Positions 1 to 34,879 of a stretch of 64,000 nucleotides of DNA are shown piece by piece. Both the position numbers and the translations under genes were made by a program. Below the pieces are notes generated by a model. It did no database searches. It was not told the origin of the DNA and saw nothing but the letters and a program-made list of their open reading frames with translations. The DNA is from Peptococcaceae bacterium BRH_c4a. Lineage in GTDB: Bacteria > Bacillota > Desulfotomaculia > Desulfotomaculales > Desulfocucumaceae. Location of the stretch: NCBI GenBank assembly GCA_000961585.1, contig LADN01000098.1:1-64000 (forward strand), read 5' to 3'. The number at the start of each line of letters is the position of its first letter. Position 1 is the first letter of the stretch.

Positions 1-1599
1 CCTGTTGCCACGGGAATCGTATTTGATACCGTTATTCCCGGGGGAGAAAAGGCCCAGCTTTTGCATGTTGCCTTTTTCCTGGTGGCCGGCGCCGTTGCAG
101 CAATGATTTTTCAGCTGACCAGATCCTTTGCCATGCAGCGAATAATGGGAAAAATGGACGGTTCCATTCAGGCTGCGGTCTGGGACAGGCTGCTTAGCCT
201 GCCGGTGCCCTTTTTCAGGGATTACACCTCCGGGGAGCTGGCCATGCGGGCCATGGCCATTGCCCAGATCCGGATGATCGTGTCGGAAACCACCGTAACA
301 ACCATTCTCACCTGCATATTTTCATGTTTTAACCTGATTCTGCTTTTTTACTATGACGCAAAATTGGCTGCCATGGCCGTCGTTCTATTGGCGGGGGCAA
401 TGGCTGTAACGTATTTTGCAGGGCGAATGATGATCAGGTATGAACGGCAAGTGATTGATATTTCCAATAAAATTTCCGGGTTAGTCTTGCAGTTTTTTGG
501 GGGAGTGGCTAAATTTCGTGTGGCCGGCGCCGAAAGCAGGGCTTTTTACCAGTGGTCCAGGGAATTCAGCGGACAAAGAAAAATTGCCTTCAATAAACAG
601 ATTATCGCCTGCTGGCTGGAAACCTTCAACTCAGTGTTTCAGGTGGCTGCCTCCATGGTCATTTTTCATGCCGTGGCGGCTTCCGCATCAACCACCCTGG
701 CCCCGGGCCAGTTCATCGCTTTTAATACGGCGTTCACCACTTTATTAATAGCCATGCTTGTGCTGTCGCAAATGCTGATGGGAATGAACACGGTGATTCC
801 CCTTCTGGAGCGGGCAAGGCCTATACTGGAGACAATGCCGGAGTACGATGAGGCAAAGGTTGATCCGGGTAAGTTGTCAGGCTCCATCGAGGTCAGCCAC
901 CTGCATTTCCGCTACAAGGAAGACGGGCCGCTGATCCTGAACGATGTGTCCCTGCATATAAAAGATGGCGAGTACATCGGGCTGGTGGGGTCTTCGGGCA
1001 GCGGCAAGTCCACTCTGTTCAGGGTCATGCTGGGTTTTGAAAAACTCGAATCGGGCCGGATATATTATAGCGGCCATGACATTGAAAAAGTGGACATCCG
1101 CGCGCTGCGCCGGCAGCTGGGAGTGGTCCTGCAGAACGGAAAGCTTTTGTCCGGGGATATATTAACCAATATCGTGGGATCCAATCCAAACCTGACCATT
1201 GGTGACGCCTGGGAAGCGGCAAAAATGGCCGGGCTGGACAAAGACATAAAGGATATGCCCATGGGCATGCACACTGTAATCAGCGAAGGGGCGGCCACCC
1301 TGTCCGGCGGCCAGAGGCAGCGGCTGCTGATAGCCCGGGCCATTGTCAACAGGCCTAAGATAATATATTTTGACGAGGCCACCAGCGCCCTGGACAACAA
1401 GACCCAGGCCATAGTCAGCCAGAGCCTGGACGGGCTCAAGGCCACCCGGGTGGTCATAGCCCACCGGCTCAGCACGGTTATAAACTGCGACCGGATCATC
1501 GTTTTGGATAAGGGAAGGATCATCGAGGAAGGTTCCTACCAGGCTTTGATGAAAACCGGCGGAGTGTTTGCGGAGTTGGCCAAGCGGCAGCTGGCCTAG
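1..1599 (+). CDS. NHLM-type bacteriocin/RiPP export ABC transporter, permease-ATPase (5' end outside window)
   Basis: The frame is open from the first base, so the start lies upstream and 532 residues are visible. The first half is a membrane domain with several hydrophobic helices. The second half is an ABC ATPase with Walker A GSSGSGKST, signature LSGGQRQR, Walker B IIYFDEATSALD and switch histidine IAHRLS. The overall pattern fits the NHLM-system ABC permease/ATPase subunits that export peptides carrying nitrile-hydratase-like leaders, and such a leader peptide is encoded 1.3 kb downstream on the same strand. The partner protease-ABC subunit would be expected upstream of the window. The substrate is inferred from neighbours. 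A generic exporter is the alternative, but the precursor nearby makes it less likely. Confidence 0.85.
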   Translation, partial: PVATGIVFDTVIPGGEKAQLLHVAFFLVAGAVAAMIFQLTRSFAMQRIMGKMDGSIQAAVWDRLLSLPVPFFRDYTSGELAMRAMAIAQIRMIVSETTVTTILTCIFSCFNLILLFYYDAKLAAMAVVLLAGAMAVTYFAGRMMIRYERQVIDISNKISGLVLQFFGGVAKFRVAGAESRAFYQWSREFSGQRKIAFNKQIIACWLETFNSVFQVAASMVIFHAVAASASTTLAPGQFIAFNTAFTTLLIAMLVLSQMLMGMNTVIPLLERARPILETMPEYDEAKVDPGKLSGSIEVSHLHFRYKEDGPLILNDVSLHIKDGEYIGLVGSSGSGKSTLFRVMLGFEKLESGRIYYSGHDIEKVDIRALRRQLGVVLQNGKLLSGDILTNIVGSNPNLTIGDAWEAAKMAGLDKDIKDMPMGMHTVISEGAATLSGGQRQRLLIARAIVNRPKIIYFDEATSALDNKTQAIVSQSLDGLKATRVVIAHRLSTVINCDRIIVLDKGRIIEEGSYQALMKTGGVFAELAKRQLA

Positions 1600-1722
1600 G
1601 AGGCTGTTGAAAAAGTCCATCTGCGGCGTTGCGGCGGCGGCTTCAATGCTCAACGTACAAGGAGTACGCCTCCGCTTGAAGCCTTGCCGCGCCTTGCATC
1701 TGGAGCTTTTTGAACAGCCTCC
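1599..1722. repeat. 124-bp imperfect palindromic element
   Basis: The two ends are inverted copies: GGAGGCTGTTGAAAAAG at the left and its near-perfect complement CTTTTTGAACAGCCTCC at the right, with one mismatch. The arms continue inward as partly paired GC-rich sequence (GCGGCG..GGCTTCAA against TTGAAGCC..CGC). The centre contains GTAC..GTAC. The left end touches the stop codon of the exporter gene. It looks like a MITE or REP-like intergenic hairpin; no transposase is present. Confidence 0.7.
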
Positions 1723-1879
1723 GGTTGTAGTCGAATAAGTACTTTGTTGACCTCTTAATATAGTTTTGCAACACTCTCCTAGGCCTTGTGTCTAATGCTG
1801 TAAATATTTCTAAAATCATGTAATGGAAATTCTGCCATGACGTATTAACAAGTGAGAAAAAATAACGAGGCAAATAAAC

Positions 1880-2767
1880 ATGAGTGAAAACGAAAAGATC
1901 CAAAATCTTGATTCGTCTGATGTCACCCGGTATGAAAAGTTTGCCTTCCCCCGTTTCCGTGATTTATTACGGAAAGAAAATCAGGATTCAATAGTTGCCG
2001 GGGCGGCTTCCTGTTACGGTTATCCGGCGGGACTTGTCCTGGCTGAAGCAATGGGAGGCGGTCAAACCGGTATAATCCATTCCTTGTTTGTGGCGCCGCG
2101 TTTTCGAAACCTCGGATTTGGAAAAGAACTGCTCTTTTTTGCCGAGAGGAAGCTGCGGGAAAAGGGATGTACGAAGTCGGAGATTTGTTTTGTTGACGAT
2201 GGGAATTCAACTTCGGCGATAAAAAGTACTCTCAGCAAGTGCGGATGGGGCGAACCGGAGTTAATGAGGGAAATCAGCAAAATTGATATCTTCTCGTTAT
2301 CGAAAGAAAATTGGCCCCATCGATATCACCTTCCCGCTGCCTACACCATAATCCCGTGGCCTGACGTTTTACCGGCGAAACTCGAAGAGCTGAAAGCGCC
2401 GGAACATAAATGGTATCCGGGTTATGCGTCTCCCTTTAAGGATCAGCCCGTTAGCCCTCACTTTTCTACCAGCTTTTGGCTGTGCCTCCGGGAGGAGATT
2501 GTCGGCTGGGTGATAACGCGACTAACAGCGCCGGACACTCTTTACTACGACATTCTTTTTGTCAGAGAAGACCTTCAAAAAACAGGACGGGGTGTACAAT
2601 TGCTCGCCGAAGCATTAAAAGCTCAATTTCGGGAACAGATACCTTTCGGGACACACATCGTAATGCACGCCGCCGGTTTTTCAAACCCGCCGCTGATAAG
2701 GTTTTCGGAACGGCGTCTGAAACCTTTTGCCTTGAGAACAGAGAAATACTGGAACTCTTATAAATGA
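1880..2767 (+). CDS. double-domain GNAT acetyltransferase of the RiPP locus
   Basis: 295 residues. The first half (about 15-135) has a GNAT acetyl-CoA-binding pattern, with the core strand IIHSLFVAPRFRNLGFGKEL and a following helix. The second half (about 150-290) repeats a weaker GNAT-like fold with YYDILFVREDLQKTGRGVQL. It lies between the peptide exporter and the precursor gene, all on the plus strand. A role in acetylating the peptide, or in self-protection, is inference from position. Base composition is lower in GC than in the housekeeping block. The ATG at 1880 has only a weak GAGG upstream. Confidence 0.7.
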   Translation: MSENEKIQNLDSSDVTRYEKFAFPRFRDLLRKENQDSIVAGAASCYGYPAGLVLAEAMGGGQTGIIHSLFVAPRFRNLGFGKELLFFAERKLREKGCTKSEICFVDDGNSTSAIKSTLSKCGWGEPELMREISKIDIFSLSKENWPHRYHLPAAYTIIPWPDVLPAKLEELKAPEHKWYPGYASPFKDQPVSPHFSTSFWLCLREEIVGWVITRLTAPDTLYYDILFVREDLQKTGRGVQLLAEALKAQFREQIPFGTHIVMHAAGFSNPPLIRFSERRLKPFALRTEKYWNSYK

Positions 2768-2877
2768 AATGATCTCTCAAAAATATTTTATTATAAGCTG
2801 TAATGGACTGCTTCATTAAACGTATTAACTAATGTGATCAAAGGAAGAGGAGTACTTCCATTTACGACTATGACAAA

Positions 2878-2889
2878 AAAGGAGGTGAT
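2878..2889 (+). promoter_or_regulatory. full-length Shine-Dalgarno of the peptide precursor
   Basis: AAAGGAGGTGAT is fully complementary to the canonical 3' end of 16S rRNA and ends five bases before the ATG at 2895. It fixes the start of the precursor gene and predicts very strong translation. Confidence 0.85.
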
Positions 2890-2894
2890 ATAAA

Positions 2895-3185
2895 ATGGCT
2901 GAAAACGGAAAAATATTGACACGCGAAGAAATTGAAAAGGCAGCAATCAGCAAAGCGTGGAAAGACGAAAACTTCAAGAAAGACCTGATGGAAAAGCCCC
3001 ATAAAGCGCTTACCCAATTAGGCGTTAATGTCCCCGAAAAAATTGAGATCAAGGTAGTCGAAGAGTCGGCTAAGGTGTTATATCTGGTTCTGCCGGTAAA
3101 TCCCGAGGACGAATTAACTGATGAAAGCCTTGAATCCGTGGCTGGTGGCAGTTGCAAAGATTTTTGCGTTCATGATATCTTTTAG
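2895..3185 (+). CDS. NHLP-leader RiPP precursor peptide
   Basis: 96 residues. Residues 1-85 form a nitrile-hydratase-alpha-like leader: an N-terminal segment with AWKDENFKKDLMEKPHKAL, then LGVNVPEKIEIKVVEES, the LPV signature, and a leader end DESLESVAGG. The double glycine is the expected cleavage site. The remaining core is only SCKDFCVHDIF, with two cysteines that are each followed by an aspartate (CKD and CVHD). This is the NHLP family of natural-product precursors (established knowledge). The core sequence and length are direct observation. The modification is inferred from the radical SAM gene that follows. Confidence 0.9.
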   Translation: MAENGKILTREEIEKAAISKAWKDENFKKDLMEKPHKALTQLGVNVPEKIEIKVVEESAKVLYLVLPVNPEDELTDESLESVAGGSCKDFCVHDIF

Positions 3186-3242
3186 TTGTTAAAATATGGC
3201 TTTTCCCGTTTCCGGCGGGATTAGCTTACTGTCATTTTTGAC

Positions 3243-3281
3243 CCGGAGGGGGAGTTTTTCTCCTCCTCCGGCACTTTTTTT
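3243..3281 (+). terminator. attenuator/terminator between precursor and maturase
   Basis: A 12-bp stem, CCGGAGGGGGAG pairing with CTCCTCCTCCGG (one G-U pair), closes a TTTTT loop. It is followed within four bases by seven T residues. Placed directly after the precursor, it would let most transcripts stop there and only some read into the maturase. Confidence 0.8.
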
Positions 3282-3297
3282 GTCTATGGGAGCTGAA

Positions 3298-4659
3298 ATG
3301 CAGATGAAACCTTCAATTTACAACTTTATCTGGCCCAGCGGCGACTCCGGGAAATTAATGGTCTTTAACAGCCTGACTACTTCACTGGTTGAAGTGGGGA
3401 GGACCCACGCAGAATTGTTAAATGTTCCCCGGTTTGAATACGATACCCTGCCTATAGCTGCAAAGCAGTTTGCCGACGGGTTAAAGCAGGGAGGATTCGT
3501 CCTGGAGGATCAAACCGATGAACTGAAAATATTGAAGTTTGCCTATAACAGTAGAAAATACCACCGGAGCGGGCTGGGTTTCACCATCGCCCCCACCCTG
3601 CGCTGCAATTTTGCCTGCACCTATTGCTATGAACAGTCGGGGGAAAACCAGGACAAGCGGGATGGTCAAAATGTTTTCATGCCGGAGAACGTACAACAAG
3701 AATTGCTTGATTACATAAAAAGGGCGGCAAAAACAGTAAAAGGCGTGAATATCACCTGGTTCGGCGGAGAGCCGCTTTTGGGTAAAGATATCATTTTCGA
3801 CCTGTCAGAGAAAATAATCGCAATCACCGGGGAGAACAAGCTGGGTTATAATGCCCGTATGGTTACCAACGGCTACCTGCTGACCGGCGATCCGGAAATA
3901 GTGCAGAAACTGAAAGACAGCAGGATAACGGCTTTCCAGATTACCCTCGACGGCCCCCCTGATGTACATAACAGCCGCCGGATGCTGAAAGCTGATAAAG
4001 GACCCACCTTCGACAGAATACTGGAAGGAATTAAGCTGTTGAAGGCTAATGAAATGAGAGTAGCCCTTCGTATCAACGTAGACCGTTCCAACATGGACGG
4101 TGTGTTAAAACTCCTGGATATACTTGAAGCCAATAATCTAAAAGACATGCCCATCAAACTGGGCCATGTTTCAGCCTATTCGGCAGGCTGCAAATCAATT
4201 GAAAATTCCTGTGCGACCAAGGAAGAATTCACGGTATTGAACCAGACCCTCCAAGAAACCTTAAGGCGAAGAGGCTTTAAAACAGGCCAGACCCCTTACT
4301 ATCCCAGTATCGCACATTCCTGTACAGCCAACCAAATAAACGCCTTTGTGGTGGATCCCGACGGCGATATGTACAAATGCTGGTCCGAAATCGGCGACAA
4401 GCCCGCACGCATTGGTAATATTATTGACTTTAAGCAACGTGGCAAGGATCAGCGGATGCGCGAAATAGGCTGGCTTACCTGGGAGCCTTTCGAGTATGCG
4501 GACTGCCGGGCCTGCAAAGTGCTGCCTATCTGCATGGGAAGCTGTGCTTACCGGGCAATGTTTGTCAACAAAGACAGGCCGGATTGCGCGGAGTGGAAAT
4601 ACGGACTGGAACATTACGTACGGGCCCGGTTTGACCGGGAAAAAGAAATCAGCTTTTAA
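3298..4659 (+). CDS. radical SAM/SPASM peptide maturase
   Basis: About 453 residues. The radical SAM cluster motif CNFACTYC sits near residue 105, followed by the TWFGGEPLL strand. A C-terminal SPASM domain carries the cysteine set CTANQ..., YKCW, CRACKVLPICMGSC and DCAEW, so auxiliary Fe-S clusters are expected. The N-terminal segment resembles the leader-recognition part of sactipeptide/ranthipeptide maturases. An upstream in-frame ATG at 3196 would place the attenuator inside the protein, so I reject it. ATG 3298 has GGGAG upstream; 3304 is also possible. The inferred reaction is a thioether or related crosslink on the 11-residue core. Confidence 0.88.
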   Translation: MQMKPSIYNFIWPSGDSGKLMVFNSLTTSLVEVGRTHAELLNVPRFEYDTLPIAAKQFADGLKQGGFVLEDQTDELKILKFAYNSRKYHRSGLGFTIAPTLRCNFACTYCYEQSGENQDKRDGQNVFMPENVQQELLDYIKRAAKTVKGVNITWFGGEPLLGKDIIFDLSEKIIAITGENKLGYNARMVTNGYLLTGDPEIVQKLKDSRITAFQITLDGPPDVHNSRRMLKADKGPTFDRILEGIKLLKANEMRVALRINVDRSNMDGVLKLLDILEANNLKDMPIKLGHVSAYSAGCKSIENSCATKEEFTVLNQTLQETLRRRGFKTGQTPYYPSIAHSCTANQINAFVVDPDGDMYKCWSEIGDKPARIGNIIDFKQRGKDQRMREIGWLTWEPFEYADCRACKVLPICMGSCAYRAMFVNKDRPDCAEWKYGLEHYVRARFDREKEISF

Positions 4660-4731
4660 AAAAACTACTGATAAAATATTTCATTCGGGTAAAAACTAGA
4701 GCCGTTATGAATATCTGCCCATGGGGTTTAT

Positions 4732-5760
4732 ATGGAGACCTTCAGGAACGGTACTTTCAACTTTACCATGATGGTGGCCGTATATATAATTGGAACCGCT
4801 ATTATTATAATCCCTGTCCTCGGTGTAAGCGAACAGGATATGTGGATCTCGGGAATAATTGGTTGGGTTGCCGGGATCGGATATGCGGTTTTCCTGAGTT
4901 TTTGCAAGCAGCCTGAAGGTCGCTACACCGTAGCAAGGATTGTATTATCCCTGTATTCCCTGCATCTGGCGGCCCTCGTAACCCGCAACATGGGTGAGAT
5001 AATACACTTAACCATTTTGCCAAATACCCCTCAAATAGTTTGCAGCACCATCCTGGTACTTTTAGCAGCCTACGCCACGGCGCAAGGGATAGAAGTAATT
5101 TGGCACTTGGCATTTTCATTTCTGGCAATTTATTTTGTGGCAGGAATTATTCTGATTGGTATGGCTGTGCCTGAAATGAACTTGAAGCATGTGCAGCCGA
5201 TGCTTGATCATGGTTTGGGATTGATAGCGAAAGAAGCAGTCCCATTTATTTCCTTTCCTTTTATGGAAACCGTGGTGTTCCTGCCATTGCTCAGGCTTGT
5301 TAAAAACCCTCTGAAATCGCTTCTCGGGGGTGTATTTATTGGAGGCGCTCTGCTTGTTTTAGCTATCTTCTTAACCGTCTTGGTATTGCCGCCTAATCGG
5401 ATTCAATACATTTTCTCTCCAATTTTAGTCGTGGCCAATTCAATTCCGGGAGAGAATTTTGCAAAAGCCGGTTTAGTGTTAATGTGGGTACAAACAGGCT
5501 TTTTAAAACTTGCAGTATTACATTTCATTGTGGTGAAGCAACTTGGCGATGCTTTAGCCATTGATTACAAGAAAATTATATTACCCTTGTCTATCCTCAT
5601 AATTAACTTCTCTATTTTGGTGTATAATAACTTCTTGGAAATGTTTAACTTCGCTTTTGAAATTTATCCATACTATGCAATGCCATTACAAATAGCAATA
5701 CCTTTGTACTTCATTATCGTCCAATGGCTCTCAAAAAGAAAAACACCAGCCAAGAGTTAG
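4732..5760 (+). CDS. GerAB/amino-acid-permease-like membrane protein
   Basis: 342 residues with about ten hydrophobic helices, beginning FTMMVAVYIIGTAIIIIPVL, as in the GerAB (spore germination permease) branch of the APC superfamily. It follows the radical SAM gene by 72 bp on the same strand. No GerAA or GerAC partner is present, which is unusual because germinant receptors are normally encoded as three-gene sets. It may serve germination alone, or may be linked to the peptide locus. Family assignment is good; role is unknown. Confidence 0.75.
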   Translation: METFRNGTFNFTMMVAVYIIGTAIIIIPVLGVSEQDMWISGIIGWVAGIGYAVFLSFCKQPEGRYTVARIVLSLYSLHLAALVTRNMGEIIHLTILPNTPQIVCSTILVLLAAYATAQGIEVIWHLAFSFLAIYFVAGIILIGMAVPEMNLKHVQPMLDHGLGLIAKEAVPFISFPFMETVVFLPLLRLVKNPLKSLLGGVFIGGALLVLAIFLTVLVLPPNRIQYIFSPILVVANSIPGENFAKAGLVLMWVQTGFLKLAVLHFIVVKQLGDALAIDYKKIILPLSILIINFSILVYNNFLEMFNFAFEIYPYYAMPLQIAIPLYFIIVQWLSKRKTPAKS

Positions 5761-6071: not shown

Positions 6072-6291
6072 GCCGGTGGAGGGGTTTGAGTCCGATCTAC
6101 TTATCCTCCGGCTGAACTGGCTCTAAGCTCGTCGCCTAACGGACTGCCGACCGCCTCCAACGCCGCGTCCATGCGTCGATTCCGGCTACCGGCTGCGTCC
6201 TGCAGCCGGCTCGGCAGTCCGTACGGCTCTGTCGCCAAGAGCCAGATAACAGCCTCCGGAACATCCGCCTGGACTAAAACCCCTCCCCCTC
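6072..6291. repeat. 220-bp imperfect palindromic block within the composite repeat
   Basis: The outer ends pair as GGAGGGGTTTGAGTCC and GGACTAAAACCCCTCC. Further in, CTGGCTCT..ACGGACTGCCGA pairs with TCGGCAGTCCGT..AGAGCCAG, around a central CCGGCTACCGGCTGCGTCC / CTGCAGCCGG. It could fold into one long RNA hairpin. The copy at 56539-56759 is almost identical. Confidence 0.8.
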
Positions 6292-9216: not shown

Positions 9217-10254
9217 TTAAGGCAGGCCTGCCTTTTCAATCAAGTTTATGGTTTTGTTGAGCTCGGATCCCAGTTGTTCCATTTTGACCGGGGTCCGCTT
9301 GAACTGGTCGAGTCTCCTGGCGTCATTGGCCGGAACCCCTTCAACCACCGGAATTTCATAATTCAGCTTGGCAAAAAGCTCCTGGGTTTGGGGCCTGATA
9401 AGGTATTCAATGAATTTTCGGGCGGACTCACTGTTTTTGGATCCCTTAACAATTGCTGCCCCGGCCACATTAACCGGAACCCCCATTTGTCCTTCTCCCT
9501 GGTCCGGGTATATTACTCCCACCGGAGAACCTTCCTGTTTCTGCAGGTGGTAATAATAGTGGTTAACCAACCCCAGCTTAAACTCGCCGGAACCAACGGC
9601 TTTTCTTACTTCGGTATGCCCTTTCAGGGACTGCGCCTGATTTGACATCAGGCTGCGCAGAAGTTTTTCGGTTTCCGCATCACCCATGGAAAGCCTCAGG
9701 GCTGTTATGTGCCCTATCAACGACTCATTGGAACTGGCAGAGATGGCCACCTGCTTTTTCCACCTGGGGTCAGCCAGGTCTTTTATGGATCTCGGCAGAT
9801 CGCTTTCTTTAACAAGGTTGGTATTATACATGATAACCCTGGTTCTGGCCGAAACTCCAATCCATGAGCCGTCATTCGCTCTCAGATCCTCGGGTACGGC
9901 TTTCAGCGCCGGTGAAGGATTGGGCTGGAGCAGTCCCTTCTGCCTCAACATTTCCATGGTGCCGGCGTCATTGGCTATAAATACGTCGGCGCCCGGGTAC
10001 TTTTGCTCTTCAATTATGGCGTTGGCCAATTCAGAGGCTCCCCCTGAACGAAGGGTAACCTTGATGCCGGTGTCCTTTTCAAAAGCATCCAGGACAGGCT
10101 TGATGAGGGGTTCCTTGCGTCCGGAATAAACCGCCAGCGGGGAACCTTCTTTCTTTTCCCCGGTGCCCTTCGGATCCTGGGATTGGGCGCAGCCGGCCAC
10201 AAGGGCGGCCATCAGCAATATTGCTGCGTAAACAAATAATAAACTTTTTTTCAT
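9217..10254 (-). CDS. fbpA: ferric-iron-binding lipoprotein of the ABC importer
   Basis: 345 residues with a lipoprotein signal (hydrophobic stretch ending LVAGC, lipidated cysteine near residue 22). The mature protein starts LAVYSGRKEPL, typical of the Fe(III)-binding FbpA/FutA family, and has the tyrosine-rich NHYYYHLQ segment where this family coordinates ferric iron. It is the first gene of the minus-strand operon and lies directly downstream of two Fur-box-like sites. The stop codon and last residues overlap a fragment of the intergenic repeat family (GGGTCGCTATTAAGGCAGG). Confidence 0.9.
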   Translation of the reverse strand: MKKSLLFVYAAILLMAALVAGCAQSQDPKGTGEKKEGSPLAVYSGRKEPLIKPVLDAFEKDTGIKVTLRSGGASELANAIIEEQKYPGADVFIANDAGTMEMLRQKGLLQPNPSPALKAVPEDLRANDGSWIGVSARTRVIMYNTNLVKESDLPRSIKDLADPRWKKQVAISASSNESLIGHITALRLSMGDAETEKLLRSLMSNQAQSLKGHTEVRKAVGSGEFKLGLVNHYYYHLQKQEGSPVGVIYPDQGEGQMGVPVNVAGAAIVKGSKNSESARKFIEYLIRPQTQELFAKLNYEIPVVEGVPANDARRLDQFKRTPVKMEQLGSELNKTINLIEKAGLP

Positions 10255-10280
10255 TTCAATCCTCCCGCTTGTTCCTAGTT

Positions 10281-10299
10281 GAAAATGATTATCAATATC
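10281..10299 (-). promoter_or_regulatory. Fur box 1
   Basis: GAAAATGATTATCAATATC matches 17 of 19 positions of the classical Fur consensus GATAATGATTATCATTATC. It lies 27 bp upstream of the binding-protein start, so iron-dependent repression of the importer is expected. Confidence 0.85.
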
Positions 10300-10392
10300 A
10301 TATTTCGCAGAAGCCCTTTTAACAAGGCCGAAAAAAGGTGATTTAGCCCAATTAGCTGTCTAAATCTTCACATGGATTGCCCTGTTACTTAG

Positions 10393-10411
10393 TGATAATC
10401 ATTTTCATTAT
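10393..10411 (-). promoter_or_regulatory. Fur box 2 (weaker)
   Basis: TGATAATCATTTTCATTAT keeps the TGATAATCATT core of a Fur site. It lies about 110 bp further from the importer than box 1, towards the divergent suyA-like gene, and may act on the importer promoter, on the divergent unit, or on both. Confidence 0.6.
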
Positions 10412-10492
10412 TTTCCGGGTTCCGAACAGGGGTCCGGAGAAAATTTTTTAATATTTTCTTAATGGAGCAGGATATTATTTAAACGAGTCGAA

Positions 10493-10529
10493 TGTTAACA
10501 GTTGACAGTCTACTGTTAACAATTATTTA
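10493..10529 (+). promoter_or_regulatory. candidate promoter with two TGTTAACA operator palindromes
   Basis: Two copies of the 8-bp palindrome TGTTAACA start 21 bp apart (10493 and 10514), forming TGTTAACAG-11 bp-CTGTTAACA. A TTGACA -35-like hexamer (10502) lies between them and a TATTTA -10-like element (10524) follows. The layout suggests a dimeric or tetrameric repressor on the promoter of the unit starting at 10555. The regulator is not identified; the GntR protein at 16235 is the obvious candidate. Confidence 0.5.
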
Positions 10530-10554
10530 AAGTATGGTTTGGGAGGAGTTTGTT

Positions 10555-10824
10555 GTGACCAAATGTCTGGTGCTGGACAAAAAGGATAATGTGGCTGTGT
10601 CAATGGCCCCTGTGAAGGCCGGAGATCAGGTTGATTTTTCCGGCGGGGAAAATGTTGTGGCGATAGACGAGGTGCCCTTTGCCCACAAGATTGCCATAAA
10701 ATCCATCCCCAGGGGAGCCAGGGTGTACAAATACGGTGAGGTTATCGGTGAAGCCACCGAGGACATCTCAGCTGGGCAGCATGTTCATGTGCATAATATC
10801 CGCAGCTTGAGGGTGAGGAGATAG
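10555..10824 (+). CDS. suyA: UxaA-family small subunit, likely (R)-sulfolactate sulfo-lyase alpha
   Basis: 89 residues from GTG 10555, with GGGAGGAG upstream. It is a single SAF-type domain, matching the separate N-terminal domain of altronate/galactarate dehydratases, and ends with HVHNIRSLRV. The large UxaA domain follows five bases later as its own gene. A split of about 90 plus 390 residues is the known arrangement of SuyA/SuyB, which cleave (R)-sulfolactate to pyruvate and sulfite. The Ldh-family dehydrogenase and TRAP transporter downstream support this. A split altronate-type hydro-lyase remains possible. Confidence 0.7.
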   Translation: MTKCLVLDKKDNVAVSMAPVKAGDQVDFSGGENVVAIDEVPFAHKIAIKSIPRGARVYKYGEVIGEATEDISAGQHVHVHNIRSLRVRR

Positions 10825-10829
10825 ATATA

Positions 10830-11990
10830 ATGAGTGCAGCTAATCTTTTGGGTTACCGCAGGCAGAACGGCGATATCGGGATAAGAAATTATGTGGCGGT
10901 AATTTCCGCCATGGATAATTCCAATCCGGTGGTGCGCAGGGTGGTAAACGCAGTGCAGGGGACTGTGGCGCTTACTCCCGGATTTGGCCGCGCTATGCTG
11001 GGGGATGATTATGAACAGCATAAAAACACACTTATTGGCTTGGGAACAAACCCCAATGTTTACGGGGCTATAGTCGTCAGCCTGGAAATCAATTCGGCAT
11101 TGGCCATCGCAGGTGGAATTGCCGCCAGCGGCCGCCCGGCGGAGGTTGTTTCCATTGAAGATGTGGGCGGAACCGTCAGGGCCACGGAGGTTGCTTCCCG
11201 GTATGCCATGAAAATGGCTCTGGATGCGGGGGCTCAGGCAAGGGAGCCCATGAGCTGGTCGGATCTGGTGATAGGCCTGGAGTGCGGGGGTTCCGACGGC
11301 AGTTCGGGGCTGGTATCCAACCCGGCCACCGGTAAAGTTGCAGATATGGTCATTGAACGGGGCGGCACCGCCATCATGAGCGAAACATTGGAAATACTGG
11401 GGGGAGAGCACCTTCTGGCGGTCAGGGCCAAGGATCGGGCCACCGGGCAAAAGCTGGTGGAGGCTGTGAACTTCTGCGTTACCTATGCTTCCGAAATGGG
11501 AGTGGACGTGCTGGGATCAAACCCCACCCCCGACAATATTCTGGGGGGTCTGTCCACCATTGAGGAAAAGGCCCTGGGGGCTATCAAAAAAGGCGGTTCC
11601 AGCACCCTCATGGAGGTTGTGGGGTATGGGCGGAGACCGTCATGCAAGGGATTCGTGGTGATGGACGCCCCCTGCCCGGGAATTGAGAATATGACGGCCA
11701 TGGCTTCGGCAGGCTGCCATGCCATTGTTTTTTCCACCGGCAAAGGAAATACCTCGGGCAACCCTGTCGCCCCCACCATAAAGGTTTCTGGCAATCCGTA
11801 CACCGTGGTGAACCTGGCTGACAATATTGATGTGGACCTGTCGGCCGTTATTGCCGGGGAAATGTCGCTGGATGGGGCGGCAAAAATATTGGAAGCCCGG
11901 CTGGCCGATGTCTGCAACGGCAGTATGACCCGGGCCGAGGTGTTGGGAGAGGTTGAGATAGCCATCAGCCGCATAGGCAGGTGCCTCTGA
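10830..11990 (+). CDS. suyB: UxaA-family large subunit, likely (R)-sulfolactate sulfo-lyase beta
   Basis: 386 residues. It begins GYRRQNGDIGIRNYVAVI, as in the catalytic domain of UxaA-type lyases, and has the GLECGGSDGSSGL motif and the cysteine-containing CPGIENMTAMASAGCH segment expected of the metal or Fe-S site. It forms a two-subunit enzyme with the preceding small gene. Altronate and galactarate dehydratases share this domain. The sulfolactate assignment rests on the split subunits and on the neighbours, and would make this locus an internal source of sulfite for the dsr genes. Confidence 0.72.
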   Translation: MSAANLLGYRRQNGDIGIRNYVAVISAMDNSNPVVRRVVNAVQGTVALTPGFGRAMLGDDYEQHKNTLIGLGTNPNVYGAIVVSLEINSALAIAGGIAASGRPAEVVSIEDVGGTVRATEVASRYAMKMALDAGAQAREPMSWSDLVIGLECGGSDGSSGLVSNPATGKVADMVIERGGTAIMSETLEILGGEHLLAVRAKDRATGQKLVEAVNFCVTYASEMGVDVLGSNPTPDNILGGLSTIEEKALGAIKKGGSSTLMEVVGYGRRPSCKGFVVMDAPCPGIENMTAMASAGCHAIVFSTGKGNTSGNPVAPTIKVSGNPYTVVNLADNIDVDLSAVIAGEMSLDGAAKILEARLADVCNGSMTRAEVLGEVEIAISRIGRCL

Positions 11991-12067
11991 CCCGGTATTG
12001 ACAGTGAGTGGCGGACAGTACAGTGAACAGGGGCATCTATGCGTGGAAAGGGGGGGGCGATCAGGTC

Positions 12068-13102
12068 ATGAGTGGTATGATGTCGGACTTTTGCAGGCGG
12101 GTTCTGGAAAAGGTTGGGATGCCTCCCGATGAAGCGGCCATAATGGCCCAGTGTCTCACCGAGGCCGACCTCAGGGGACATGAAACCCACGGAATGTCCC
12201 GGCTGGGAATGTACCTGGAAAGGGTAAAAAGGGGTGTCATGAAGCCCGACCCGGAGATAAGGGTGGTGCAGGACGGCGGTGCGGTTACCGTTTTGGACGG
12301 GGACCACGGATTCGGTCAGGTTGTGGCTGCCCTGGCCCTGGAAATGGCTGCCTCAAAAGCGGCTGAAATAGGCGTGGGAGTGGTTGCCGTGCGCAACAGC
12401 GGCCATGCGGGAGCCCTGGGAATTTTGGCCGAAAGAGTGGTTTCCCGGAGGAAAATAGGCATAATTTTCACCAATACCAGTCCTATTATGGCCCCCTGGG
12501 GGGGCAGGGAACCCGAGCTGGGTAATAACCCCTTCGCCATAGCGGTTCCCAGGGAGGGCCGTGATCCCGTTATACTGGACATGGCGCTCAGTGTTACAGC
12601 CCGGGGCAACATCATACTGGCATCCCGGGAGGGCGGCGCCATTCCGGAAGGGTGGGCCATAGACCGCGGGGGGCGGCCGGTAACAGACGCCCGGGAGGCC
12701 CTGCTGGGCACTGTTCTGCCCATTGCCGGACACAAGGGTTATGCCCTGGCCCTGATGATCGAAATATTGGCCGGTGTGCTGACCGGGGCTTCCTTTGGAA
12801 GGAATGTGGCCTCACTGATGCCGCCTGATTACAGCAAGCCCCTGGGAATGGGCCATCTGGTGATGGTGCTGGATGTGGAAAAATTTATTCCCTGGGATGA
12901 GTTTCAACGGCGCCTGAGCCGGTTTTTAAATCAGATCAAGGAGAGCCCGCCGGGGGATGGGGGATCTGAAATTATCATCCCCGGGGAAAAGTCGGCGCAA
13001 AAAAGGTCCCGGAGGCTCAAGGAGGGCTGCGTAATCAATGAGTCAACCCGCAGGGAGCTGATCAGGATCGGTGAGGAGTACGGCGTTCCCTTTGAGGTAT
13101 AG
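12068..13102 (+). CDS. Ldh-family NAD(P) dehydrogenase, possibly sulfolactate dehydrogenase
   Basis: 344 residues from ATG 12068, which aligns with the usual N-terminus of the malate/L-lactate dehydrogenase (Ldh_2) family; an in-frame GTG at 12008 would add 20 atypical residues. Family motifs present: ADLRGHETHGMSRL with the catalytic histidine, VRNSGHAGALG, GNNPFAIAVP and the late GHKGYALALMIEILAGVLTG. ComC, the (R)-sulfolactate dehydrogenase, belongs to this family, and it often accompanies suyAB and a transporter. Malate, lactate or ureidoglycolate substrates cannot be excluded from sequence. Confidence 0.75.
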   Translation: MSGMMSDFCRRVLEKVGMPPDEAAIMAQCLTEADLRGHETHGMSRLGMYLERVKRGVMKPDPEIRVVQDGGAVTVLDGDHGFGQVVAALALEMAASKAAEIGVGVVAVRNSGHAGALGILAERVVSRRKIGIIFTNTSPIMAPWGGREPELGNNPFAIAVPREGRDPVILDMALSVTARGNIILASREGGAIPEGWAIDRGGRPVTDAREALLGTVLPIAGHKGYALALMIEILAGVLTGASFGRNVASLMPPDYSKPLGMGHLVMVLDVEKFIPWDEFQRRLSRFLNQIKESPPGDGGSEIIIPGEKSAQKRSRRLKEGCVINESTRRELIRIGEEYGVPFEV

Positions 13103-13202
13103 ATCTTGGCATATTAAATATTTTTACCCGGTTCCCGGTGCAAGGCAAAACCGGGATAGCGGGATAATAATAAAAAATAAATAAAACAGGGGGGTAAACA
13201 AT

Positions 13203-14249
13203 TTGAACCAGAAAGAATTCAGAAAGGGCAGTTTTGCCCGAATCGCCGGTGTTCTGGCGCTGGCGGCAGTGGTCGGCTTTACCGCCGTGGGATGCGGCGG
13301 CGGCAAGGGTTCCCAAGAAAAGTCAGGGGCGCCTGACAAGCAGTATGTATTCAAGGTGGGCCACGCCATGCCGGAAAACCACCCGTTCCAAAAAGGGCTG
13401 GTTAAATTCGCAGAGCTGGCGGCCCAGAAGAGCAACAGCAAGATAAAGGTGGAGGTTTTTGCCTCGGGAGTGCTGGGAGGAACCAGGGATCGCACTGAAG
13501 GGGTCAAGAACGGCATCGCCGACATGGAGCTGGTGGGCAGCACCCAGCTGGGAGCCTTCGTTCCCCAAATGCTGGTGGCCGACCTTCCATTCATTTTCCG
13601 TGACTATGACCATGTGGACAAGGTTTTCCAGGGAGAAGTGGGTAAAAAGCTTGCCGAGGCTTCGGACAAGCAGGGAATCAAGGTGCTGGGATGGGGTGAA
13701 AATGGCTTCCGCCATGTTTTCAACCGCTACCGCCCGGTCAACTCACTGGAGGACATGAAGGGTCTTAAACTCCGGGTATTCCCCAACCAAGTGTATGTTG
13801 ACACTTTCAAGGCCATGGGTACCCTGCCGGTAACCACCGACTGGGGTGAGTTGTTCACCGCCCTGTCTCAGAAAACAGTGGACGGGGCCGAAGCCGCCCC
13901 GGCGCACTTTATCACCAGCAAGTTCTCGGAAGCCGGGCAGAAGTACTTCTCCATGACCGGCCACATGTACGTTCCGGCCGTTCTAATCATGAGCTCCAAG
14001 AAATTCAGTGAAATGCCGGCGGACCTCCAGAAGGCCCTGGGCGAGGCCGCCAGGGAAGCCATGGACTACCAGCGCAAGCTGGCCCGGGAAGAGGAGAAGG
14101 GTTTCCTGAACGAGATCAAGTCTAAGGGTGTAGCGATCAATGAAATAGCTGACAAGTCCAAAATTATGGAGCAGACAAAAGGGGTATACACCACTTTTGA
14201 GCCGAAGATCGGCAAGGATCTGATTGAAGCAGTTAAAAACGCAAAATAG
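13203..14249 (+). CDS. dctP: TRAP transporter solute-binding lipoprotein
   Basis: 348 residues starting with TTG behind a GGGGGG run. A lipoprotein signal ends FTAVGC. The mature protein begins YVFKVGHAMPENHPFQKGL, a DctP hallmark, and has LKLRVFPNQVY with the arginine that binds a substrate carboxylate, then TDWGELFTALSQKTVDGAE. It is followed by the small and large membrane subunits. An organic acid is expected; sulfolactate or a relative is inferred from the enzymes upstream. Confidence 0.92.
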   Translation: MNQKEFRKGSFARIAGVLALAAVVGFTAVGCGGGKGSQEKSGAPDKQYVFKVGHAMPENHPFQKGLVKFAELAAQKSNSKIKVEVFASGVLGGTRDRTEGVKNGIADMELVGSTQLGAFVPQMLVADLPFIFRDYDHVDKVFQGEVGKKLAEASDKQGIKVLGWGENGFRHVFNRYRPVNSLEDMKGLKLRVFPNQVYVDTFKAMGTLPVTTDWGELFTALSQKTVDGAEAAPAHFITSKFSEAGQKYFSMTGHMYVPAVLIMSSKKFSEMPADLQKALGEAAREAMDYQRKLAREEEKGFLNEIKSKGVAINEIADKSKIMEQTKGVYTTFEPKIGKDLIEAVKNAK

Positions 14250-14264
14250 GGGGAACCAATCAAT

Positions 14265-14762
14265 ATGGATGGGCTGAAAAAGGTTGCCGACATCACCTAC
14301 CAGACTGTAAAGGCGCTGTCCCTGCTGATGCTGGGGGCAATGATCGTGGCCGGTTTTTCACAGGTAGTGCTTCGGTACGTTCTGCACTCACCCATCCCCT
14401 GGGCCGAAGAATTAATACGGTATTTGTTTGTCTGGATAACCCTTCTGGGGGGGGCAATGGCCGTCAGGAGCAAGGGCCACCTGGCCATGGACATGTTGGT
14501 CAGCAAGCTCCCCCCCAAGCTGGGGGTTTCCTGTGCGTTTATAGGATCCGTTCTATCCGGAGGGGTACTTGTTTTTCTTGCGGTATCAGGGGCTGAACTG
14601 GCCTTAAACAATTCAAGTCAGGTTTCCGACGCCATGGGAATGACCATGTCCATACCTTACATGGCCATCCCCGCAGGGACCGTGTTAATGTTATTTTTCC
14701 TGGTTGAGGCATTGGTTCAGGCGGGCCGGGCGCTGCTGAGACCGGCCCGGTCAGGCAGTTAA
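14265..14762 (+). CDS. dctQ: TRAP transporter small membrane subunit
   Basis: 165 residues and four hydrophobic helices, with the DctQ signature PIPWAEELIRYLFVWITLLG and the family's GGAMAVRSKGHLAMD segment. It lies 15 bp after the binding protein and 15 bp before the large subunit. Confidence 0.92.
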   Translation: MDGLKKVADITYQTVKALSLLMLGAMIVAGFSQVVLRYVLHSPIPWAEELIRYLFVWITLLGGAMAVRSKGHLAMDMLVSKLPPKLGVSCAFIGSVLSGGVLVFLAVSGAELALNNSSQVSDAMGMTMSIPYMAIPAGTVLMLFFLVEALVQAGRALLRPARSGS

Positions 14763-32258: not shown

Positions 32259-33677
32259 GTGGCTTTTGAACCTAAACGTCCAGTGAAAGAAATAAACTAT
32301 GCCGAGTCCAGGATATACACTGACGCAGAACTGAATAACTACACCGAAGAGGAACTTAAGAATTTTAAAGTCAAGCACGAAATTCCGATGCTTGAAGAAC
32401 TGGAAAAGGGGCCATGGCCCAGCTTTGTGGCTGATGCCAAAAGAAACGCCCTGCATAGAAAAAAATTGGCCGATGGCAGGCTGCTGCTTGACAAAGAAGG
32501 TTCCGAGGATCTGCTGGGATTGCTGGAGCAGTCCTTTGAAGAGGGCGAAACCCACTGGAAGCACGGCGGTATCGTGGGAGTTATGGGCTACGGCGGAGGC
32601 GTTATCGGCAGATACACCGACATGGCCGAAAAATATCCTTCCATTGCTCATTTCCACACCATGCGCGTCAACCAGCCCGCCAGCAAGTTTTATGACACAA
32701 ATTTCCTGAGAACCATATGCGACCTCTGGAGCTACCGTGGAAGCGGACTGATGAACCTGCACGGTTCCACCGGCGACCTGGTTCTTTTGGGAACGGTAAC
32801 AGAGCAACTGGAGCCCATTTTCTTTGAACTGACCCACGTTATGGATACCGACATCGGAGGATCCGGCTCCAACCTGCGCACTCCTTCCTGCTGTATCGGC
32901 AAGGCCCGCTGTGAGTTTGCCTGTGTGGACACTCAGGAACTGAGCTACGAACTGACCAACCATTATCAGGATGAACTGCACCGCCCGGCTTTCCCCTATA
33001 AGTTTAAGTTTAAATTTGACGGCTGCCCCAACGGCTGCGTTGCTTCCATCGCCCGTTCCGACCTGTCCTTCATCGGTACCTGGAGGGACGACATCAGGAT
33101 CGACCAGGAGGCCGTGAAAGCCTATATTGCCGGAGAAATCAAGCCCAATGCCGGCGCCCACGGCGGAAGAGACTGGGGCAAGTTCGACATTCAGAAAGAG
33201 GTTATAGGCCTCTGCCCCACCGGTTGCATGGCCATGGAAGACGGCAAGCTTGTTATCGATAACGCCAACTGCACCCGCTGCATGCACTGTATCAACACCA
33301 TGCCCAGAGCTTTAAAGCCCGGCACTGATACCGGCATCAGTCTGCTTTGCGGAGCCAAGGCCCCCATACTGGACGGCGCACAGATGGCTACCCTGCTGGT
33401 GCCCTTTATGAAGGCCGAGCCGCCTTATGACAACATTAAAGAATTAATTGAGAAAATTTGGGAATGGTGGATGGATGAGGGCAAAAACCGTGAGCGTATA
33501 GGTGAGCTCATCCAGCGCGTCGGCCTGCCGAAATTCATTGAGGTTCTGGAGCTTCCGCCTGCCCCGCAGATGGTCAAGGCTCCTCGTTCCAACCCGTACA
33601 TCTTCTGGAAGGAAGAGGATGTTATCGGCGGATGGGACAGGGATATCAATGATTATCGGAAGAGACATAAGAGATAG
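32259..33677 (+). CDS. dsrA: dissimilatory sulfite reductase alpha subunit
   Basis: 472 residues from GTG 32259 (AAAAGGGGGT upstream), giving the usual N-terminus AFEPKRPVKEI. Siroheme/[4Fe-4S] cysteines occur as CCIGKARCEFAC and FDGCPNGCVAS. An inserted ferredoxin domain has CPTGCMAMEDG and NCTRCMHCINTMP. With DsrB it reduces sulfite by transferring sulfur to DsrC in the cytoplasm. It is first in dsrABD, 15 bp before dsrB. The co-occurrence of dsrD indicates the reductive direction. Confidence 0.98.
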   Translation: MAFEPKRPVKEINYAESRIYTDAELNNYTEEELKNFKVKHEIPMLEELEKGPWPSFVADAKRNALHRKKLADGRLLLDKEGSEDLLGLLEQSFEEGETHWKHGGIVGVMGYGGGVIGRYTDMAEKYPSIAHFHTMRVNQPASKFYDTNFLRTICDLWSYRGSGLMNLHGSTGDLVLLGTVTEQLEPIFFELTHVMDTDIGGSGSNLRTPSCCIGKARCEFACVDTQELSYELTNHYQDELHRPAFPYKFKFKFDGCPNGCVASIARSDLSFIGTWRDDIRIDQEAVKAYIAGEIKPNAGAHGGRDWGKFDIQKEVIGLCPTGCMAMEDGKLVIDNANCTRCMHCINTMPRALKPGTDTGISLLCGAKAPILDGAQMATLLVPFMKAEPPYDNIKELIEKIWEWWMDEGKNRERIGELIQRVGLPKFIEVLELPPAPQMVKAPRSNPYIFWKEEDVIGGWDRDINDYRKRHKR

Positions 33678-33691
33678 GGGGTTAGAGAAAT

Positions 33692-34879
33692 ATGAAATTA
33701 TCCACCGAAAAAGCTGGCAGATTCATACTGGAAAAGCCGCAGGAAAACAGGCTTACAGACCTGGGCCCCAGGCATTACTGGGAGTATTTTCCTCCGGTTA
33801 TTAAAGAAAATTACGGCAAGTGGGCATATCATGATATGCTGGAGCCCGGCGTGATGGTGCACGTATCGGAAACCGGAGCCAAGGTGTTCACCGTCAGGTG
33901 CGGCGCCGCCCGTTTTATGACTGTTGAGCATGTCCGCGAGATCTGTGACATCGCCGACAAGCACTGCGGAGGCTATGTGCGCTTCACCACCAGGAACAAC
34001 ATCGAGTTCCTGACCGACAACCTGGAAAGCTTAGAGGCGCTGAAGGCCGATCTCTTAAGCCGGAAACATGTATCCGGAAGCTTCAAGTTCCCCATCGGAG
34101 GAACCGGCGCCGGCATCACCAATATAGTCCATACCCAGGGCTATATACACTGCCATACCCCGGCCACCGATGCTTCTTCCATGGTTAAGGCTGTGTCCGA
34201 TGAGCTGTTTGAATACTTCACCGGCATGCAGCTGCCCGCCAAGGTCAGGGTTTCCATGGCCTGCTGCCTGAATATGTGCGGCGCCGTGCACTGCTCGGAC
34301 ATCGCTCTTTTAGGATATCACCGGAAGCCTCCCATTGTGGACCATGAGTATATCAGCAAGCTCTGCGAAATTCCTCTGGCCATTGCAGCCTGCCCGGTGG
34401 GCGCCATCTCCCCGGACAAGACCGCAGACGGTAAGAGAACCGTCAAGATCAAGAATGAGCGCTGCATGTTCTGCGGAAACTGTTACACCATGTGCCAGGC
34501 ACTGCCTCTTTCGGACAAAGAGGGTGACGGCGTGACAATACTGGCCGGCGGGAAAATTTCCAACCGGATCAGCGAGCCCAAGTTCTCCAAGGTTGTTGTG
34601 CCCTGGCTGCCAAATAACTTCCCCAGGTTCCCCGAAGTGATCAGTGATGTCAAGAAGATTGTGGAAGCCTATGCCAACGGCGCCAACAAGTATGAACGTC
34701 TGGGAGACTGGGCCGAGCGTATCGGCTGGGAGAAATTCTTCGAGAAAACCGGGCTGCCCTTTACCGAGCACCTGATCGACGATTACCGCCTGGCCTATGA
34801 CACCTGGCGGACCAGCACACAGTTTAAATTTACGGATGCAGCCTGGGCGGTCTCAAAGGCAGCGGGCGGGATTGACTAG
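33692..34879 (+). CDS. dsrB: dissimilatory sulfite reductase beta subunit
   Basis: 395 residues. It starts with the typical [17 protein letters not shown]-like segment (here [18 protein letters not shown]) and has [11 protein letters not shown], the siroheme/cluster site [14 protein letters not shown], and a ferredoxin domain with [17 protein letters not shown]. It pairs with DsrA in an alpha2beta2 enzyme. A GGGGGTTAG stretch precedes the ATG. It is followed 31 bp later by dsrD. Confidence 0.98.

Follow-up and report, generated by a model that had tools for sequence, protein, structure and literature searches.

An NHLP-leader peptide locus of Peptococcaceae bacterium BRH_c4a combines a radical SAM/SPASM maturase with a tandem GNAT and a short conserved core

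The first 5,760 bases of a 64,000-nucleotide stretch from Peptococcaceae bacterium BRH_c4a (contig LADN01000098.1, positions 1 to 64,000 of the forward strand; hereafter the window) carry an exporter gene, a tandem GCN5-related N-acetyltransferase (GNAT), a precursor with a nitrile-hydratase-like leader peptide (NHLP), a radical S-adenosylmethionine (SAM)/SPASM enzyme and a permease, and raise the question which product these genes may make together. A preliminary description of this DNA had proposed from its NHLP leader, NHLM export and radical SAM/SPASM enzyme that it encodes a ribosomally synthesized and post-translationally modified peptide (RiPP). That the locus is a RiPP locus is virtually certain, with leader and exporters scoring above the cut-offs of their families. 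Beyond this, we give about even weight to the proposal that its product is a short, secreted RiPP with two modifications, namely a lipopeptide cross-linked by the radical SAM enzyme and additionally acylated. All five elements were recovered at the positions given before and on one strand. Since the open reading frame (ORF) lists are mechanical, only ORFs with profile support were treated as genes. The features of the locus, including those on an overlapping contig (C94), are:

1..1599, + strand: 3' part of the NHLM ABC2 exporter (permease/ATPase; TIGR03797, 785 bits, cut-off 709)
1600..1782, no strand: repeat resembling a miniature inverted-repeat transposable element (MITE), with terminal inverted repeats GAGGCTGTTGAAAAAG...CTTTTTGAACAGCCTC
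1880..2767, + strand: tandem (two-domain) GNAT, 295 aa (PF00583 matched twice, E=5e-18)
2895..3185, + strand: NHLP precursor, 96 aa (TIGR03793, 113 bits, cut-off 51 (50.9))
3242..3283, + strand: terminator-like GC-rich hairpin (CCCGGAGGGGGAG...CTCCTCCTCCGG) with T-run, between precursor and maturase
3304..4659, + strand: radical SAM/SPASM peptide maturase (PF04055, E=2e-22; TIGR04334, 451 bits, below the cut-off)
4732..5760, + strand: GerAB-like permease (Spore_permease/GerAB; PF03845, E=5e-19)
L009 5008-6420 on C94, outside the window: HlyD (TIGR03794, 466 bits)
L009 6421-8613 on C94, outside the window: ABC1 with C39 peptidase (TIGR03796, 1156 bits)
L009 8659-11370 on C94: full-length ABC2, 903 aa (TIGR03797, 966 bits)

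The precursor consists of an 85-aa leader ending in VAGG and an 11-aa core, SCKDFCVHDIF (core bases 3150-3182), and thus shows the NHLP leader, Gly-Gly cut site and short core of its class. Its gene is preceded by a strong ribosome-binding site (AAAGGAGGTGATATAAA). The gene order GNAT, precursor, radical SAM enzyme following NHLM genes is kept in Peptococcaceae BRH_c8a, which is placed in a different family within the order, and, apart from small insertions, in Desulfocucumis palustris. The core in BRH_c8a is the same SCKDFCVHDIF, encoded with two synonymous and no nonsynonymous codon changes, and the leaders are 80% identical. With only eleven codons compared, this hints at purifying selection on the core and is no strong evidence for it. 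The core of Desulfocucumis palustris reads GACKGFCVHDVI. Cores elsewhere in this precursor family are hypervariable, and the constancy of SCKDFCVHDIF stands out. The hairpin 3' of the precursor gene has equivalents in BRH_c8a (L011) and Desulfocucumis (L027) and would fit a precursor produced at higher levels than its enzyme.

The window opens at the very start of its contig (C62), whose bases 1-3130 are identical to bases 22771-25900 of C94 over all 3,130 positions. Because HlyD, the ABC1 exporter with its peptidase and the remainder of ABC2 are found on C94, the three genes are, as judged from their profiles, a complete and standard NHLM export set; all are linked to the precursor and exceed the curated cut-offs. 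A cut after VAGG is expected because the C39 peptidase is encoded in ABC1. The locus had been called compact; it is less so than it looks, since the window is cut off by the end of its contig and further exporter genes lie on C94. Genes within the overlap are counted twice in genome-wide searches. The two NHLP matches in the genome are both copies of one precursor within the overlap, and a second NHLP paralogue was thereby ruled out.

The ORF of the maturase opens at 3196, and homology to TIGR04334 and relatives begins at MKPSIYNF, 3304. All ten [4Fe-4S] cysteines are kept: the CX3CX2C motif (C101, C105, C108) and the seven SPASM cysteines (C340, C359, C401, C404, C410, C414, C428) are invariant across 19 homologues. 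Of the curated maturase families, TIGR04334 'Clo7bot' comes closest in full-length comparison and is also the best NCBIfam match, yet with 451 bits against a cut-off of 600 the protein is not a member. Neither does it belong to the PapB family (NF047865; 117 bits, cut-off 340), and its score also falls under the 425-bit cut-off of the SCIFF maturase. The subfamily members tested, Methanosarcina included, reach 397-451 bits with TIGR04334, and by these scores the maturase and its relatives look like a separate NHLP-linked subfamily near TIGR04334. By profile and fold, the closest solved enzyme is CteB (5WHY/5WGG), a thioether former with a RiPP recognition element (RRE). The N-terminus of the maturase model, itself of low confidence (predicted local distance difference test score, pLDDT, of 59), has the RRE-like order strand-strand-strand-helix-helix-helix, and this domain probably binds the leader.

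The association of maturase and precursor had been set beforehand as a test of the RiPP assignment, and it holds. Among the 113 genomes of the class, 15 encode the radical SAM enzyme and 14 of these also NHLP leaders (Fisher p=2e-11, a value that is too small because the genomes of the class are related to each other), and an NHLP precursor lies within ~1.2 kb at 16 of the 17 closest radical SAM loci. We are highly confident that the enzyme acts on the core SCKDFCVHDIF. The bond it makes is, with a modest preference on our part, a thioether; our best guess is one or two Cys-to-Asp thioethers of the ranthipeptide type, Cys2-Asp4 and Cys6-Asp9. Cys-Asp thioethers are preferred because PapB takes Cys-Xn-Asp with n from 0 to 6 (PMC9413430), a pattern that the spacings C2-K-D4 and C6-V-H-D9 fit.

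The radical SAM subfamily extends beyond the class. It occurs in Methanosarcina and Methanomicrobiales (L022-L026) with 56-61% identity and NHLP precursors alongside, the archaeal cores being nearly constant (C[VM]GCDGVGGCGFCEC); the gene has likely crossed between domains, and the archaeal RiPP is likely a conserved one. At L058-L063 (G094:C1:2375000-2490000), about 15 NHLP precursors and three copies of the radical SAM gene, one with an in-frame stop, are spread over ~100 kb, so that one maturase type is found with very different cores. Natural cores of the subfamily run from ~5 to 35 residues. Among the papers listed in literature searches on TIGR04334, TIGR04463, OhkG, geopeptide and CefB, all were unrelated, and a search on Clo7bot returned none.

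The tandem GNAT is the distinctive part of the locus, a likely core-lysine acyltransferase, a role that the preliminary description had overlooked. Tandem GNATs of this type are reported to lipidate a core Lys of NHLP/Nif11 precursors (PMC13060382; PMC9505594), and one of them, NpuN, attaches a C16 acyl chain to Lys1 of the nostolysamide core and carries a [QR]xxGx[GA] P-loop (PMC13060382). The protein encoded in the window has one P-loop motif per half, RNLGFG (aa 76-81) and QKTGRG (aa 233-238), and R76, G79 and G81 of the first are invariant in ten homologues. Its model, which is of low confidence, matches best the tandem GNAT 2WPX, with VipF also listed. As in selidamide loci, the tandem GNAT is encoded beside an NHLP/Nif11-type precursor with a Lys in the core; the single Lys of SCKDFCVHDIF, at position 3, is a possible acyl acceptor. 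A profile search placed the tandem GNAT in nine genomes of the class, each time next to an NHLP precursor, and an earlier single-sequence search had found GNAT and NHLP together in 8/8 GNAT genomes (p=6e-7). Lys is present in 15 of 17 GNAT-linked cores versus 27 of 54 other cores (p=0.005) and lies at most two residues from a Cys in 12/17 versus 5/54 (p=2e-6), both p-values being too small because three distance limits were tried and paralogous arrays (seven cores in G026, three in G036) were counted repeatedly. We consider it probable that the GNAT acylates Lys3.

Further GNAT loci were noted. Within the same genus, at L057 (G026:C17:127000-146000; 9406-14272), seven NHLP precursor genes lie in an array behind a GNAT gene. 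Their cores mostly end in Lys-(x)-Cys-[YF]-G-[YF]-G-Y, the YGYGY ends being reminiscent of splicease substrates, and the opposite strand encodes two further SPASM radical SAM enzymes. At L053 and L054 (G017:C10, G022:C1), an S41-peptidase-like gene, a GNAT, a divergent radical SAM enzyme (49%) and a precursor with the core CSCTMGQIAIEPPLR are accompanied by a second precursor on the opposite strand, with a core beginning ICFIYS. A distant cluster of the phylum, L090 (G264:C205, 6264-16039), combines a tandem GNAT with two NHLP precursors, whose 7-aa cores HSAPKNF and GTKWDIG have Lys as the sole amine side chain. It has its own set of ketosynthase, short-chain dehydrogenase/reductase, FabA/FabZ-like protein, acyl carrier protein (ACP), AMP-ligase(-thioesterase) and phosphopantetheinyl transferase. 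Since Lys is the only core amine side chain and an acyl supply is encoded alongside, L090 strengthens the case for acylation. L090 is likely a RiPP-polyketide or RiPP-fatty-acid hybrid cluster, and perhaps more novel than the locus in the window.

Taken together, we envisage that the 85-aa NHLP leader would guide the precursor to the radical SAM/SPASM enzyme via the RRE-like N-terminal domain, and that this enzyme would cross-link the core, most likely through one or two Cys-to-Asp thioethers. The tandem GNAT would acylate the side chain of Lys3; by analogy with selidamides and nostolysamides, the group added is most likely a fatty acyl chain donated by coenzyme A (CoA) or ACP. The ABC1-borne C39 peptidase would cleave after Gly-Gly, and ABC1, ABC2 and HlyD would export a small cyclic lipopeptide. 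The bond type, the acyl chain and the order of these steps we infer from the genes; the product may be a membrane-active or a signalling lipopeptide.

How well does this proposal stand up to other readings? The precursor could be the remnant of a nitrile hydratase, as the preliminary description had itself considered, and the locus could have been assembled by chance. The precursor does match the NHase_alpha domain (PF02979), but it scores 113 bits as an NHLP leader and 38 bits as nitrile hydratase alpha, its core is kept in BRH_c8a, and the same neighbourhood is found there and in Desulfocucumis; profile scores and core conservation led us to reject this reading, whose probability we regard as negligible. 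More serious is the idea that the radical SAM enzyme makes another modification, such as an aromatic cyclophane C-C bond, a C-alpha sactionine linkage or an epimerisation, with the cysteines forming a disulfide or a metal site (Cys2/Cys6/His8/Asp9). Profiles of the cyclophane makers YhhB, GrrM/OscB and AmcB do match the maturase at 55-81 bits, and the hypervariable cores of the subfamily hold many aromatic residues near Cys. However, thioether-type maturases outscore the cyclophane makers (117 bits for PapB, and the CteB fold), and Cys is the most constant core feature, so that we consider such a modification unlikely, if the strongest competitor. Likewise unlikely, and slightly more so, is that the GNAT puts no fatty acid on Lys3 and instead only acetylates, transfers an acyl group to the N-terminus or to a residue of the leader, or serves self-protection of the producer through acetylation of the product. 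Single-domain relatives acetylate small amines, NpuN takes acetyl-CoA in vitro (PMC13060382) and two GNAT-linked cores have no Lys. These observations are countered by the enrichment of Lys in GNAT-linked cores, by the acyl-chain genes dedicated to L090 and by the arguments against a self-resistance role of NpuN in PMC13060382. The spore-type permease had been counted as part of the system, in which it might act as an immunity factor, exporter or peptide receptor. While its gene lies 72 bases 3' of the maturase gene on the same strand, no permease was found beside the radical SAM or GNAT relatives at any of the relatives' loci examined, BRH_c8a has a DUF7005 gene in that place, and the ribosome-binding site is weak. 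A role in the system is thus very improbable and was discarded; the permease is probably a neighbour outside the conserved set.

Several observations weigh against the proposal of a cross-linked and acylated lipopeptide itself. The product is a prediction from the genes, and the models of maturase and GNAT have low confidence (pLDDT 59 and 53). Asp4 of the core is replaced by Gly in Desulfocucumis, so that at most the Cys6-Asp9 pair is conserved and one of the two rings is doubtful, and no single Cys-acceptor motif was seen by eye across the cores of the radical SAM subfamily. Counted by locus, a core Lys is found in 7/9, the per-core counts not being independent. The GNAT-linked cores of G017 and G022 are identical and lack Lys; there, the GNAT may act elsewhere. 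The kinship of the GNAT with NpuN is judged from type, context and PMC13060382. Finally, exporter and GNAT may be separate transcripts, with the MITE-like repeat lying between them.

RiPP clusters with NHLP leaders and NHLM export have been described (Haft 2010, PMC2887384; Haft and Basu 2011, PMC3023750; Letzel 2014, PMC4289311), and work from 2011 and 2014 already pointed to radical SAM proteins next to NHLP leaders in anaerobic organisms (PMC3023750, PMC4289311). The locus shares with them the TIGR03793 leader, the VAGG cut site, HlyD/ABC1/ABC2 and relatives in Pelotomaculum and Desulfotomaculum. It differs in having a tandem GNAT and neither cyclodehydratase nor LanM, and in its core of 11 aa compared with the 14-59 reported. 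With selidamides and nostolysamides (PMC13060382, PMC9505594) it has in common a tandem GNAT by an NHLP/Nif11 precursor, a C39-type exporter and a core Lys, whereas the characterised ones are lanthipeptides (LanM) and the window has a radical SAM/SPASM enzyme instead; moreover, the P-loop is clear only in the N-terminal half of NpuN (PMC13060382), while both halves of the window GNAT have a P-loop-like motif. Ranthipeptide systems (freyrasin/PapB, SCIFF/CteB; PMC9413430, PMC8326336) share the full SPASM cysteine set and possibly the RRE, to judge from the low-confidence model of the N-terminus, and the core Cys/Asp stand at spacings that PapB tolerates (n = 0-6, PMC9413430), of which Asp4 is Gly in Desulfocucumis, but here the maturase scores under the PapB and SCIFF cut-offs, the leader is of the NHLP type and the core has only two Cys. 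Nif11 clusters on Mesorhizobium plasmids likewise encode a leader-type precursor, radical SAM enzymes and a tandem GNAT, which is 22% identical and belongs to the family of the window GNAT, yet their leader is Nif11 and the enzymes are an epimerase and a C-methyltransferase, not a SPASM cross-linker. The preliminary description had not recognised the gene combination. The class has been known since 2010-2014, and in the literature searched, which covered few subscription journals, we found no description of a Clo7bot-like maturase and a selidamide-type tandem GNAT acting on one very short conserved core; the combination is apparently new.

The neighbourhood of the locus showed further features. 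The MITE-like repeat measures ~187 bp, is bounded by long inverted repeats and folds into a very stable hairpin. It occurs at ~33 places in the genome (the window copy and ~32 others) and appears recently mobile because most copies are 96-100% identical. It is not present in the matching exporter-GNAT gap of BRH_c8a, which measures 117 bp versus 280 bp here. The next best copies of the permease in the genome are 26-29% identical, and the gene is not in a gerA-type operon: the maturase lies upstream and an opposite-strand ABC transporter downstream, with no gerAA or gerAC by the ORF map only. DUF7005 (PF22541) recurs by NHLM exporters or NHLP precursors at L051, L052, L057, L061, L066, L079 and L080 and is possibly an accessory RiPP protein; the window's own genome gave no match, an absence that is unproven as control genomes also gave none. 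No known RNA family was found within 1-5760 (Rfam). A TwoAYGGAY RNA motif (Rfam; 6103-6261, - strand, 45.5 bits, gathering 43) lies between the permease and the opposite-strand ABC transporter genes. The host had been taken for a sulfate reducer, with which dsrA in the window (32391-33650, 582 bits, cut-off 393) is consistent; a weaker dsr-type match follows directly, and the pair spans 32391-34768.

Few RiPPs are lipidated, and those characterised with a lipid on a side chain are lanthipeptides. If our proposal is true, tandem GNATs would also work together with radical SAM cross-linking, and strict anaerobes such as sulfate reducers and syntrophs would gain small cyclic lipopeptides. The analysis offers a simple rule, namely that Lys lies near Cys in NHLP cores linked to a GNAT, and a radical SAM family with widely differing cores that is useful for studying the substrate tolerance of maturases. 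Only tentatively do we suggest that the locus represents a lineage of mini-RiPPs that are both cross-linked by a radical SAM enzyme and lipidated on a side chain. In such a selidamide-ranthipeptide hybrid, Cys and acyl-Lys would be neighbours, and the 11-residue product would be constant across families, unlike the hypervariable other cores of the precursor family. Such a fixed product among fast-changing peptides, if true, would suggest a conserved target or signal.

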